In this document: piece after piece, positions 1,124 through 40,470 of the stretch | Numbering within the stretch: position 1 is the stretch's first letter | Layout of the letters: each line of letters opens with the position of its first letter | NCBI GenBank assembly: GCA_945874895.1 | Contig: CAMCIC010000015.1 | Location: 1-64,000, forward strand | Direction: 5' to 3' | Length of the DNA: 64,000 nt | From: Akkermansia muciniphila | GTDB taxonomy: Bacteria; Verrucomicrobiota; Verrucomicrobiia; Verrucomicrobiales; Akkermansiaceae | Notes under the pieces: generated by a model | Seen by the model: only the letters and a program-made list of their open reading frames with translations | What the model was told of the DNA's origin: nothing | Databases searched by the model: none | Made by a program: the position numbers and the translations under genes

Positions 1124-1377
1124 ATGATCGAAGCATTTTGCTTGGCTTTTCTATGTGTTCACTCGGTGGTTGTCAAAAAAAAATACGATTTTTTTGGCGC
1201 GATATTTCTGAATGGCATGGCAGTAAGCGCTGACTTCTATGGTGGTATGAGGCAATTCAGTTGCGTATGTTAGGAAGGCATCCTCCTATGGTGCAAATCG
1301 CTTAGAAAACGGGTTTTTTGATTTCCCTGAAGGCTACGAAAAGCGATCATGCTTCGGCAAAGATCCGCGCACGGCGG

Positions 1378-4300
1378 TCACGGGCGAAGGAGTCTGATGC
1401 GATAGAAAGCTTTTCCTGCTGGTGGATTGGCATCGGTAAAAGTGCCGCCCTCCATGATTCCGAGATCATTCCACGTGCCGGATAAGTTTGTGGAGCGCTC
1501 TACGCGGAAACGAACACCCGGGGCGCTTTGCCAGTTCAGTGAGAGATTGTTTCCCGTGCGTTTCATCTCAGCGCGAAACATCGATCGTCCGCTGGCAGGA
1601 TGGAGTTGCAACAGGGATTCAACAAGATTGCTAGTGCCATCCGCATCGTAATCATCCTCCGCACGCTGTGCCAGATGACCGAAATGCGTCATTTCCCATG
1701 CGTCTGTCAGTTGGTCTTGGTCCGCATCATGGGAGAAAACAAATGCGGAGGGGCTGCGGGCGATGGAACTGATACGAACCTCGTCGATGGATCCTAAAAA
1801 AACCTCAGAGCTTCCTCCCGTGGATCGGGCTTCGTTGCCGATGGAGAAATCTCCTTGCATCGTGGCGGAGGTGAATTCCGAGGAAAGAGTTGCCGTGCCG
1901 ATCTGGTTGGCGATGGCCACTCCCGAGTCCAAGCGCGTCCAATAAAACCGAGTATTCTCTGCTTCACCAGCTTTTCCATCGTAGGTGATAGCCACATGAT
2001 ACCAGACATCGGTTGCAGCCGTGTGGACACCTTCCGCGGGAAGGGGAACGGATAGTGATTCTGTCGCGACGGCGAGTTTGATAAATTGCAACGTTGGTAA
2101 TCCGTTAGAAGAGGCAATACGGAATTGAAACACACGGTCTTCTGCAAATGATCCATCGCCGTCCATGCTTACAATCTGCCCCGGTGTGGTCCAAGTGCCC
2201 GGATGAATGTCAAAACGCACCATGGCCTCGATCGTGAAAGCTCCGTCCGGTCCGTGATACGCAAATGTGGGAGGTGTCTCTGGCGTGACGAGAGAGGATA
2301 GGGTGGATGCGTAAGTAACGATGCCCCGGTTGGTGGTGGATCCCGTATTGAAATTCACCGCGGTGCCAAAGCCGCTGGGCGCAGATTGTTGGGCCAATGC
2401 GCCATTGAGTTGGCCTTTCAACGAATGGGTAGCTTGGACCGCATTCGCAAATGGAGCGGCTGGTTCGTCGAAATGCCATAGATGCAAGGTTTCTGAATCG
2501 GGAAGGTAGGGCTGCGGTTGAGCTAAGTCGAATGTCACTTCTGTGAGACTATTCCACATGCTGGCGGTATTGCCATGTCCCACGTAGCGGATGTATCGTG
2601 CGGGAATATCCGTAATATCAAAAGTTTCCAACTCCAGGGACGTGCCGGAACTCATCGACCGTGAGAGCGCGGGAACCCAGGTGATGCCGTCCAGCGATGT
2701 CAGGATGTCAAATGTCGCTCTGCGCGCATTTCCCAAATAGAAGGCGAGAGCGATGGAACGCAGTCGGGCAATATTCGAAAACTCCCACGTGATGAATTCG
2801 CCATCTCCCAGCGCAGACCATCGGGTGGCTGTGCTTGCGTCGAGAGTATTCACGGGCAAATTGCCGTCGTGACTTGAGGCAGTGGCGCTGATGATGGGAA
2901 GTTTGACTGCGATGGCGACGACTGCGACGACGATGCGATCGGTCGAGACAACTCCTTCTTGGCTCGTGGCCTCGTACACGAGAGTGTGTGTGCCCACGGG
3001 CAGATCGATGGAATGTGAGGCTTGGATCGCAACCACATTGCCTTGATACAACCATCGCTGCGATGCTACGATCATGCCAGACGTGGATCCTACTTCGCCA
3101 TTCAGCGAGATGGACTGCGAGCCGTTGCCGTCGATGTCGATCAGGCGTTGATCCTGCCCCGCAAAGGCTTCGAAAACCGATCCTGTGGCGTAATCCAGCA
3201 CATGCAAAGGCACAGGTGTGGGCGTGCTGGAGGCGGGAGCGTCTTCCGAGATGAAAACAGACAGAACTCCGCTTTTGCGCAAGCGATCATGATCGAGACG
3301 CGGTTCCCCTCCGAAATTGCTTCCTGTTGTTGTGAGAACAGTCCAGTCCGTGTAATTTGTTGCAGCGGTAGCAGCGGCGATCACCAATTGTTTGCCTGAC
3401 CGATACACCGTGTAAATATCACCATTCGACAAAGTTTCCACATCGGGGCGCGAGCCCACTGGGTAGGTGACTGGTAGTCGCGAACCTGACCATGCACCTG
3501 TGGCGGGGTTGCGGAAATAGTGAAAGTAGGCTGTATCGCTTCCACTGAAGGGGCCGTCGCCCAGTGTCCATTCGAATCCCGGTTCCTGACGGCGGTGATA
3601 AACCAGAATGTGAACCCGACCTTGTTCGTCGACACATTGCGTTTGCTGGTTGATCAACTGTTGACGGCAGTCGAGGGGGATCACGACTGTGCCAGGTGTA
3701 TCCACCCGAATGCGCTGTCCGAGCGAGGTATCAGCGATGAGTGTGCCTGCATTGTTATACCACTTGACGCCACGATCGGGACTGTAGGCGTAGCAGACAT
3801 CGTGATTGGAGGCCACCACGCTTTCGCGCCATGTCCAGGTATAATGGAGCGTGCCATCGCTGGTAAAATCGAAGCCGTTGGCATACGCGTTGCGGCTGGT
3901 CGATGTGAAGCTACCGCCGTTATTGGAAAGTCCGGAATAGGTTCCATCCTTGATGGTAATCAAATTGGGTGAAGCGTAGTTTTCGGTGGACGATTGCCAG
4001 GATGCGAGCCAGTTCGAGCCATTGCTGGATCCACCCGTACGATAGTTGAATAACAGGGTGTTTTCCGGTGTGTTGATGAACATCGGATAGGTCACACTCG
4101 TGATGCTGCTGCCGGAGCTGGTGATCCAGTTCTGCTCCGCCATGATCTGAGAGGAATTCCATACCTTGTCCTCATGGGTGGTGAGTCCCGTAATGCTGCG
4201 TCGGTAGCGCAGGGCATTGCCATGATGATCCCACGACATATGCAGAACACCATCGGCTTTTGATATGCCAAGCGAAATGGTATTGTGCGTATCCCAGGCG

Positions 4301-38756: not shown

Positions 38757-38849
38757 AAAATTCACTTGCCATACCATTGGTTCCTCCACTATCAATCCCC
38801 GCGCTCAGCGGAGCGCATCATCTGTTTTCACAGATGTTGATACGGAAAT

Positions 38850-38925
38850 GGGGTTTTAGCTCAGTTGGTAGAGCACTTGCATGGCATGCAAGGGGTCAGC
38901 GGTTCGAATCCGCTAAGCTCCACCA
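38850..38925 (+). tRNA. tRNA-Ala, anticodon GGC
   Basis: 76 nt with all four stems pairing: acceptor GGGGTTT/AAGCTCC, D stem GCTC/GAGC, anticodon stem CTTGC/GCAAG with loop ATGGCAT (anticodon GGC), T stem AGCGG/CCGCT with loop TTCGAAT. Discriminator A and CCA (38923-38925) are encoded. It reads alanine GCC and GCU codons. Confidence 0.95.
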
Positions 38926-39396
38926 TTTCCGAATCCCTTTGTTTTGCAAGGGATGGATAGCTGGTTGCCTTTGAGCATACCTTTCATGGGCGAGTTCTTG
39001 ATGGAATCGATCAGCCCACCATTGTGTCTGTCTGCGGTCCCAAAGGGACCATTCCTCCAAGCCCACGGAGAAACCGTGGGGAGAGCGTCATCCTCAAAAA
39101 TTTTCGCGTCCCAACGGGACGTTTCATCAGGGGCCATACGATGACCTTGCCACACGACGCGAGTGTTTCGATGAGGCGTCCCGTTGGGACGCAGTGGGTC
39201 TTTTTGGTTGATCTTTCCCACGGATGCTCCGTGGGCTGAAATCAATCGTCCTGTTAGGACGCTATCACATATATTCCGAGCAATGATCTAAAAGCCCATT
39301 TTTCTCATGCTAGGGCAAACTGCCAAGCACCATGTCCCTGTCCGATTCATGAATTCCGGACTTGCCGCTGGCTTCTTGCTATGACAGGAGGTGCTT
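38926..39396. other. Non-coding gap between tRNA-Ala and argA
   Basis: 471 bases with no supported gene. A 7-bp hairpin (38933-38954) close to the tRNA may end its transcript, though no T-run follows. The palindrome array at 39036-39261 fills the middle. Short open frames here are by-products of the palindromes. The last ~130 bases carry the argA leader and its ribosome binding site. Confidence 0.7.
39036..39261. repeat. Mirror-symmetric array of six palindromes (REP/BIME-like element)
   Basis: Six hairpins: A1 GGTCCC-AAA-GGGACC (39036-39050), B1 CCCACGG-AGAAA-CCGTGGG (39062-39080), A2 CGTCCC-AAC-GGGACG (39107-39121), then in opposite orientation A3 CGTCCC-GTT-GGGACG (39177-39191), B2 CCCACGG-ATGCT-CCGTGGG (39217-39235), A4 CGTCCT-GTT-AGGACG (39247-39261). 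Gaps are 11, 26, 55, 25 and 11 nt, so the array is two copies of an A-B-A unit in inverted orientation. A3 is the exact reverse complement of A2, and both are followed outward by TCATC. A-type stems differ by paired changes. Confidence 0.85.
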
Positions 39397-40470
39397 GTGC
39401 AAAACGACGTCCGAGCTGTGTTGCAATACGTTCCGCAATTCCGCGGGCGTCTTTTCTTGGTGATGATCGAGGCTGGTCGCTTGCCCGAGGCAGCGGTGGC
39501 GGAATGCCTGCTCGATATGGCGGCGCTCGAGGACGTGGGCGTGAAGATGGTCATTCTAGTTCTGGGGGGCGATGTCAAGGATCTGTATGACTGGAGCCTC
39601 GAGTGCGAAATCAAGGTCGCGCGCGCGAGAGAGTCCATTTCCAGTCCGCGTTTGCTCCAAGAAACTCGTGACATTCTTGGGCGCGGTCAGGTGCCAGTCA
39701 TCGATGCTACAGGTTTTGCGGCTTTGGATGACGCGGTGGTAGATCTCGTGATCGATCTCGGTGCCAGCAAGCTGATTGCCTTGCTGGAACACGGCATTCT
39801 TGTCGATGGCGCTCCCGTACACGCGGTTCGCGCGGCCGATGTTCCTTCCTTGACGAACGGTCGTTCGGTGGAGGGCCTCGATTTATTGGATCAGGCGGCT
39901 AAGGCCTGCTCGCGCGGCGTGCCACGGGTGCATGTGCTCGATGGTCGACAACAAGGCGTGCTCGTAGACGAGTTGTTTTCTAACGAAGGGGTTGGCACCA
40001 TGGTTCACGCGGATAGCTATCGCATCGTGCGTGAGTTGGCAGCCGAAGACATTCCTGAATTGCTCGGTATGATCGGTCGTTCGGTGCGGAGGAGCTTTCT
40101 GGTTCCTCGCAATTATGAGGAAATCGAGAGTCGCATCGAAGATTACCGCGTGATGCTTATCGACGACAACGTGGTCGGTTGTGTGGCCTTGCATCGCTAT
40201 CCTGAGGAAAATTGTGCGGAAGTGGCGTGTCTCTATGTCAAGCAGGCCCACGAGGGCAGGGGCTATGGCGCGGATCTGGTGCGACATGCGGAGCAAATGG
40301 CTGTAGCCCGCAACATTCCTCGCGTGTTCGCACTTACCAATCGTGCCGTGGTATTTTTCCGCGATCGGATGGGATACTCGGAGGTCGAGCCCGATCAGTT
40401 GCCCGCAACGCGAAAGTTGTTGTTAGAGCAGAGCGGTCGGCATTCCAAGATTTTTGACAAGTGGCTGTGA
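39397..40470 (+). CDS. argA: N-acetylglutamate synthase-like protein (amino acid kinase plus GNAT domains)
   Basis: About 357 residues. GTG 39397 is chosen because AGGAGG at 39386-39391 stands 5 nt upstream; the frame also has GTG 39391. Residues 1-205 resemble the acetylglutamate-kinase-type domain (FRGRLFLVMIEAG, LVIDLGASKLIALLEHGIL, RVHVLDGRQQGVLVDELF, GVGTMV); residues 215-357 are a GNAT acetyltransferase (ELLGMIGRSVRRSFLVPRN, VACLYVKQAHEGRGYGADLV, FALTNRAVVFFRDRMGY). This architecture makes N-acetylglutamate, the first step of arginine synthesis. The kinase half is shortened and diverged, as expected for a regulatory, non-catalytic domain. No other arg gene is adjacent. Confidence 0.8.
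   Translation: MQNDVRAVLQYVPQFRGRLFLVMIEAGRLPEAAVAECLLDMAALEDVGVKMVILVLGGDVKDLYDWSLECEIKVARARESISSPRLLQETRDILGRGQVPVIDATGFAALDDAVVDLVIDLGASKLIALLEHGILVDGAPVHAVRAADVPSLTNGRSVEGLDLLDQAAKACSRGVPRVHVLDGRQQGVLVDELFSNEGVGTMVHADSYRIVRELAAEDIPELLGMIGRSVRRSFLVPRNYEEIESRIEDYRVMLIDDNVVGCVALHRYPEENCAEVACLYVKQAHEGRGYGADLVRHAEQMAVARNIPRVFALTNRAVVFFRDRMGYSEVEPDQLPATRKLLLEQSGRHSKIFDKWL

Follow-up and report, generated by a model that had tools for sequence, protein, structure and literature searches.

The locus and the six-hairpin element

Between a tRNA-Ala gene and a 359-aa gene, the window (the whole 64-kb stretch of DNA analysed) carries six perfect hairpins at 39036–39261. They are of two kinds, A and B, and follow one another in the order A-B-A/A-B-A, with the right half an inverted copy of the left. 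The features of the region are:

38850–38925, + strand: tRNA-Ala (GGC), a neighbour outside the element, 110 nt before it
38999–39035, + strand: probable outer extension of the unit (TTGATGGAATCGATCAGCCCA...), common to three copies
39036–39050: outer A hairpin, left half, GGTCCC aaa GGGACC
39062–39080: B hairpin, left half, CCCACGG agaaa CCGTGGG
39107–39121: inner A hairpin, left half, CGTCCC aac GGGACG
39122–39128, - strand: head beside the left inner A and candidate guide motif, TTTCATC (GATGAAA on the - strand), conserved in the order's aligned half-units
39122–39175, - strand: centre, remnant of the transposase element by alignment to the intact gene-carrying unit
39170–39175, + strand: head beside the right inner A, GATGAG, conserved in the aligned half-units
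39176–39192: inner A hairpin, right half, GCGTCCC gtt GGGACGC
39217–39235: B hairpin, right half, CCCACGGA tgc TCCGTGGG
39247–39261: outer A hairpin, right half, CGTCCT gtt AGGACG
39217–39261, + strand: match of B plus outer A to Rfam RF01687, Acido-Lenti-1 (33 bits, cut-off 37, E 1.2e-5)
39391–40470, + strand: 359-aa gene, a neighbour outside the element, named argA in the preliminary description; orthologue in 9/9 congeners

The hairpins are separated by gaps of 11/26/54–55/24–25/11 nt. The inverted-repeat arms, on which the mirror layout put forward in the preliminary description depends, are borne out: 39037–39080 is 75% complementary to 39217–39260, and 39106–39128 is 91% complementary to 39170–39192. 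Hairpins of the same kind number 56 in the whole 64-kb window, six of them within the 226 nt of the element, and the folding energy of the element lies at z = -6.95 (RNA) or -7.19 (DNA) against dinucleotide shuffles, so that both density and folding are far from chance. About 38 nt outside the left outer A are common to the window copy, the first copy at C11 and a half copy at C21:44532; the unit may therefore reach to about 38999.

One arrangement recurs in half-units of the genus and of two genomes that are more distantly related within the order: outer A, a TTCAT head, AGCCC, B, a linker of 16–27 nt, inner A and the same head again. The heads of both A hairpins face the centre of the element and read TTCAT, or ATGA-K on the other strand. 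As both A hairpins of each half carry the same centre-facing head, the half consists of two A units of the same orientation with B between them and not of three unrelated hairpins.

The claim that stem substitutions are compensated holds within the window, where changes in one arm are matched on the other, and also in a sample of ten halves from five genomes, picked only by their position flanking a transposase gene. In these ten halves 95% of cells are paired and nine pairs have changed on both sides; there are 20 double-change cells against 5.8 in shuffles, with 0/500 shuffles as high, and sliding the partner by 1–3 columns lowers the paired cells to at most 46%. This covariation indicates that selection acts on the fold. 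A larger covariation table of 42 half-units was set aside as proof because its half-units had been selected for pairing.

Copies in the genome and their sites

The A palindrome CGTCCCNNNGGGACG has 18 exact sites in the 2.9-Mb genome against 1 for a reversed-pattern control, and the B palindrome 19 against 0. Three further near-full-length copies of the 226-nt element exist at ~87% identity, two at C21 and one at C11, and half or partial copies occur at C11, C21, C8, C7 and C13. At C21 near-identical copies form a tandem array of about four units with a copy of a transposase gene inside it. The copies are intergenic and few, tens and not hundreds, and occurrence of the element is patchy among congeners. 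The array is thus not unique in the genome, and relatives also hold copies, with covariation among them.

An occupied/empty comparison at the tRNA-Ala/argA site, proposed at the outset, gave no clean empty site that could be read, the two genes being neighbours in 0/9 congeners; their outer neighbours also vary in the four congeners examined in detail. The element sits at a synteny junction of its own genome (region 38757–39391), tRNA-Ala and the argA-like gene lying apart in 9/9 congeners. At the truA locus, half-units stand between the same two genes in the element's own genome (G000) and none in a congener (G003), a difference compatible with insertion although the flanking sequences have diverged too far for a target site to be defined.

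Several copies are associated with other sequences. In C11:4000–9000 (L022, positions 1223–3590) a half copy of the element and a full copy enclose an AbiE-like toxin–antitoxin pair. The pair comprises a 353-aa nucleotidyltransferase-like gene and a 202-aa gene, names that reflect a sequence impression, and CAGACAAATGATTTTC recurs at each of the two junctions, which gives the impression that a cassette was inserted into a tandem array. The copies at C7, C8 and C13 (L019, L020, L023) are nested in a further short repeat, AATGCCTTTAAAG... and GGACTGAAGTCCGCGCTCC, which looks like a second family of the REP kind. In two species some A hairpins (L208 in G009 C3; L209 in G008 C461) are interrupted at the same place in the stem by a second palindrome, roughly CAAGATCGCGTGAGGCTAGCCTTTTACGCG, which may be a nested element with the hairpin as its target.

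The gene-carrying unit and its transposase

The preliminary description reported no RAYT gene in the window, and the Y1 transposase gene indeed lies outside it, at C21. There, the ~55-nt centre of one unit is replaced by an intact gene for a 150-aa HUH/Y1 transposase (C21:46812–47261; L024:1313–1765), and A-B-A halves flank the gene at L024:1191–1274 and 1784–1867. The search for an IS200/IS605-like transposase gene that had been suggested thus led to one between two halves on another contig. In four congeners A-B-A likewise stands on each side of the closest transposases, which are 80, 63, 62 and 62% identical. Copies in the genome, a Y1 transposase between two halves and covarying stems together uphold the proposal of a composite REP-like mobile unit.

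The protein matches Pfam Y1_Tnp (PF01797, 87.5 bits) and the NCBIfam IS200/IS605 model (NF033573, 69.6 bits) and contains the motifs DHVH, WQ and YIENQEEHH; residues H55, H57, W95, Q96, Y115, H122 and H123 are invariant in 35 sequences. Its predicted structure (pLDDT 87) matches the TnpA proteins of IS608 and ISDra2 with E ~1e-8; the match to 4er8, the REP transposase of E. coli, is weaker (E 1.3e-4). No tnpB-sized frame was found inside the C21 gene-carrying unit; many IS200 elements are also without tnpB. The best named matches to the transposase include Verrucomicrobiota (Rubritalea, Haloferula and Verrucomicrobium) and also two Pyrinomonadaceae MAGs. A gene of this type is present as a single copy in the genome, which has two more PF01797 Y1 genes of a different type, at C5:203753 and C2:253587 (L025, L026), with frames of 353 and 245 aa.

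Alignment to the C21 unit accounts for the centre of the window copy. On the - strand, the gene leader TCGAAACACTCGCGTCGTG...ATG, whose ATG (39137–39135) corresponds to the former start codon, is joined directly to CCCCTGATGAAA, a sequence that in the intact unit begins ~10 nt past the transposase stop codon. Gene-less copies in two sister genomes (G008, G009) retain different remnants, including the gene's last codons. The junction of leader to post-stop sequence and the different remnants point to gene-less derivatives formed by internal deletion, an event that probably occurred more than once, and the window copy reads as a non-autonomous deletion derivative of the gene-carrying unit.

Transposase subclass 1.2 and palindromic flanks

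In the published classification, TnpA-Y1 subclass 1.2 is defined by Y---Q--HH and a median length of 148 aa, is entered as REP 'no' in Table 1, and is found mostly in Cyanobacteria and Bacteroidetes at low copy (Quentin 2018, PMC6006769). Judged by its sequence, the C21 transposase matches this subclass; membership here is assigned by motifs (DH[IV]H, WQ, Y---Q--HH) and a length of ~148 aa. The flanks of 108 relatives of the transposase from many phyla, all with Y---Q--HH (108/108), were then compared, an inverted-repeat flank being called where the 300-nt flanks scored above the 99th percentile of mismatched pairs and windows shifted by 1500 nt serving as control. Such flanks surround 57/108 genes against 0/143 shifted windows, and hairpins on both sides accompany 48/108 against 2/143; about half of the genes compared have no strong inverted-repeat flank. 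Palindromic inverted ends are therefore common in subclass 1.2 and have been overlooked in the literature searched. A scan across all phyla for outward-pointing B plus A gave 12 and 18/108 outward against 4 and 8 inward, with a background of 2 and 6/220, a weak signal that is only supportive.

Many subclass-1.2 genes of the order (L160, L163, L154, L156 and others) are accompanied by long arrays of direct palindromic repeats, with stem sequences that differ from the A and B stems. The hairpin type seems to be particular to each gene, which makes co-evolution of ends and transposase measurable.

Acido-Lenti-1

The half-unit could not be matched to a described family in the preliminary description; in part it does have one. 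The right-hand B plus outer A aligns to the full RF01687 model (1–46/46), both hairpins included. Against the curated cut-off of 37 bits the window copy scores 33, the best copy in its own genome 36.4 and copies in related genomes up to 51. RF01687 was described as a candidate structured RNA from Acidobacteria and Lentisphaerae (Weinberg 2010, PMC2864571) and is annotated in Rfam as an sRNA of unknown function; a 2026 paper notes that little is known about what Acido-Lenti-1 does.

Matches to the model occur in 41/57 relatives, above the cut-off in 30, with up to 81 per genome. Among the best 150 matches listed, 14 have a subclass-1.2 gene no more than 400 nt away, against 0.155 expected, and all 14 point outward, on the opposite strand upstream and on the same strand downstream. 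Two genomes, G005 and G037 (L138, L162), have a match on each side of the gene, and in G120 one inward-pointing match lies 303 nt from it. A Brocadiaceae record (L043) has a match above the cut-off 47 nt downstream of the gene; it is the single match at the Rfam gathering threshold in 20 subclass-1.2 loci, so that the ends of many members lie beyond the RF01687 model.

Gene and model also co-occur by genome. The fourfold counts are 38/3/3/13 in the 57 relatives (Fisher p = 1e-7) and 8/5/2/81 in 96 genomes of the phylum (p = 4e-7), and genomes outside the first set give p = 1.5e-5, all three values being overstated because the genomes are related. The exceptions are RF01687 without the gene in 3/57 and the gene without RF01687 in 3/57; in the 96 they are 2 and 5, respectively. 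Two genomes with ten or more low-score Y1 transposase matches (G097, G126) gave no RF01687 match at the threshold used. Acido-Lenti-1 is probably mobile DNA, and we infer that the family consists wholly or mostly of transposon ends and not of a free-standing small RNA.

Relation to known systems

The system is neither a GTAG REP nor a typical IS200 element and most likely works like REP/RAYT or a TIRtron. With REP/BIME and RAYT (Nunvar 2010, PMC2817692) it shares an HUH/Y1 gene between palindromes in inverted orientation, gene-less inverted pairs that are dispersed and in tandem, and a head beside the palindrome. It differs in that the element's aligned half-units carry an ATGA-K (TTCAT) head and no GT(A/G)G, in having three hairpins of two kinds per side, and in numbering tens, not hundreds, of copies; class 2 RAYTs have Y---NP, whereas the protein here has YIENQEEHH and Y---Q--HH is found in 108/108 genes compared. 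The preliminary REP/RAYT reading was accordingly right in essence, although the GTAG head is absent and the transposase is short and subclass-1.2-like, not a classical RAYT. The CGTC-tagged REPs of Di Nocera were considered because an A stem starts with CGTC, and were rejected: the CGTC is unpaired there and lies within the stem here.

TIRtrons (Di Nocera 2013, PMC3733652) also have a Y1 gene, TIRYT, between long terminal inverted repeats, some of which contain self-complementary tracts and some of which form repeat families; their published motif is GGGGWSAS (same source). Published TIRYTs fall into subclass 2.1 in 20/26 cases and otherwise into 2.2 and 2.5, none into 1.2 (Quentin 2018). Subclass 1.2 as published (PMC6006769) agrees with the present system in DH[IV]H, WQ, Y---Q--HH, ~148 aa and low copy, and differs in being listed as REP-less, whereas palindromic flanks are present here and common among the relatives searched. 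With IS200/IS605 (subclass 1.1; IS608, ISDra2) the likeness extends to the catalytic HUH and tyrosine and to the fold, whereas the present element ends in inverted arrays of palindromes and has gene-less derivatives; subclass 1.1 has Y---Q without HH and several near-identical copies, against HH and a single gene copy here. Acido-Lenti-1 (RF01687, PMC2864571) likewise has an 8-bp hairpin, a 12-nt linker and a 5-bp hairpin, but in contrast to its annotation, B plus outer A here makes up one end of an element that carries a transposase gene between two inverted ends, and an inner A hairpin is added to it. As in MITEs, the ends are those of an autonomous element whose coding region has been deleted.

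Mechanism and alternative explanations

The window element is best explained, with a probability of roughly 0.85, as a non-autonomous MITE/BIME-like element that arose by internal deletion from a transposable unit with a single gene, of the form [outer A-B-inner A]-Y1 gene-[inner A-B-outer A]; we infer that it is mobile. In IS200/IS605 and REP systems a dimer of the HUH/Y1 protein recognises hairpins in single strands and cuts where a guide defines the site. By analogy, the subclass-1.2 HUH/Y1 transposase would recognise the hairpins when their DNA is single-stranded, probably while it is being replicated, and the conserved ATGA-type head beside each A hairpin would act as the guide. The enzyme would cleave at the head with its tyrosine and join the ends, gene-less copies would be moved in trans, and tandem arrays may lengthen when a unit is amplified together with its flank. 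B is paired in all sequences and always stands beside the outer A, which suggests that it too forms part of the recognition site.

Three other explanations deserve weighing. The transposase and palindromes may have been domesticated for a host role, such as transcription end, mRNA protection or chromosome organisation, with little or no mobility left. The few copies and their intergenic positions, the one gene copy of the subclass-1.2 type in the genome and stems kept by selection would all suit such a role, and classical TnpA-REP is described as domesticated in PMC8266576. We nevertheless regard it as rather unlikely, given the C21 tandem array of near-identical copies with a gene copy inside, the patchy occurrence among congeners and the deletion derivatives with different breakpoints in different genomes. 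Alternatively, the hairpins could act as RNA, either as a functional small RNA, in line with the annotation of Acido-Lenti-1, or as a regulatory element, and their position near the transposase would be incidental. RF01687 is classed as an sRNA gene in Rfam, Weinberg 2010 (PMC2864571) graded it 'probably' an RNA, the 2026 paper considers copies beside protease genes possibly regulatory, and the element folds stably. An RNA is improbable, however, when units stand on both sides of the transposase gene and point outward, form tandem and inverted arrays, enclose deletion remnants of the gene and co-occur with it at genome level; the family also reaches tens of copies in a genome.

That a classical (class 2) RAYT encoded in the same genome moves the element as a classical GTAG REP/BIME is harder still to credit. 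The two other PF01797 genes at C5 and C2 could supply such an enzyme, and inverted palindrome pairs with a head motif have the expected form; yet the GT(A/G)G head is absent, and A-B-A flanks the C21 gene on both sides, as it does the corresponding gene of the subclass in four congeners.

Implications

The intact unit, the copies with the last codons and the leader-only copies, in the same and in sister genomes, lay out stepwise the passage from a transposon to a BIME-like repeat. A subclass listed as REP-less in the main classification gains palindromic ends and a testable function. It is reasonably probable that RF01687 as a whole is DNA and not RNA, the inverted ends of a widespread and so far REP-less class of Y1 elements, subclass 1.2, which would then form a second system of the REP/RAYT type in several phyla, marked by a head motif of its own and by ends of two hairpins. 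An orphan Rfam family that annotators still read as a regulatory RNA would thereby gain an explanation.
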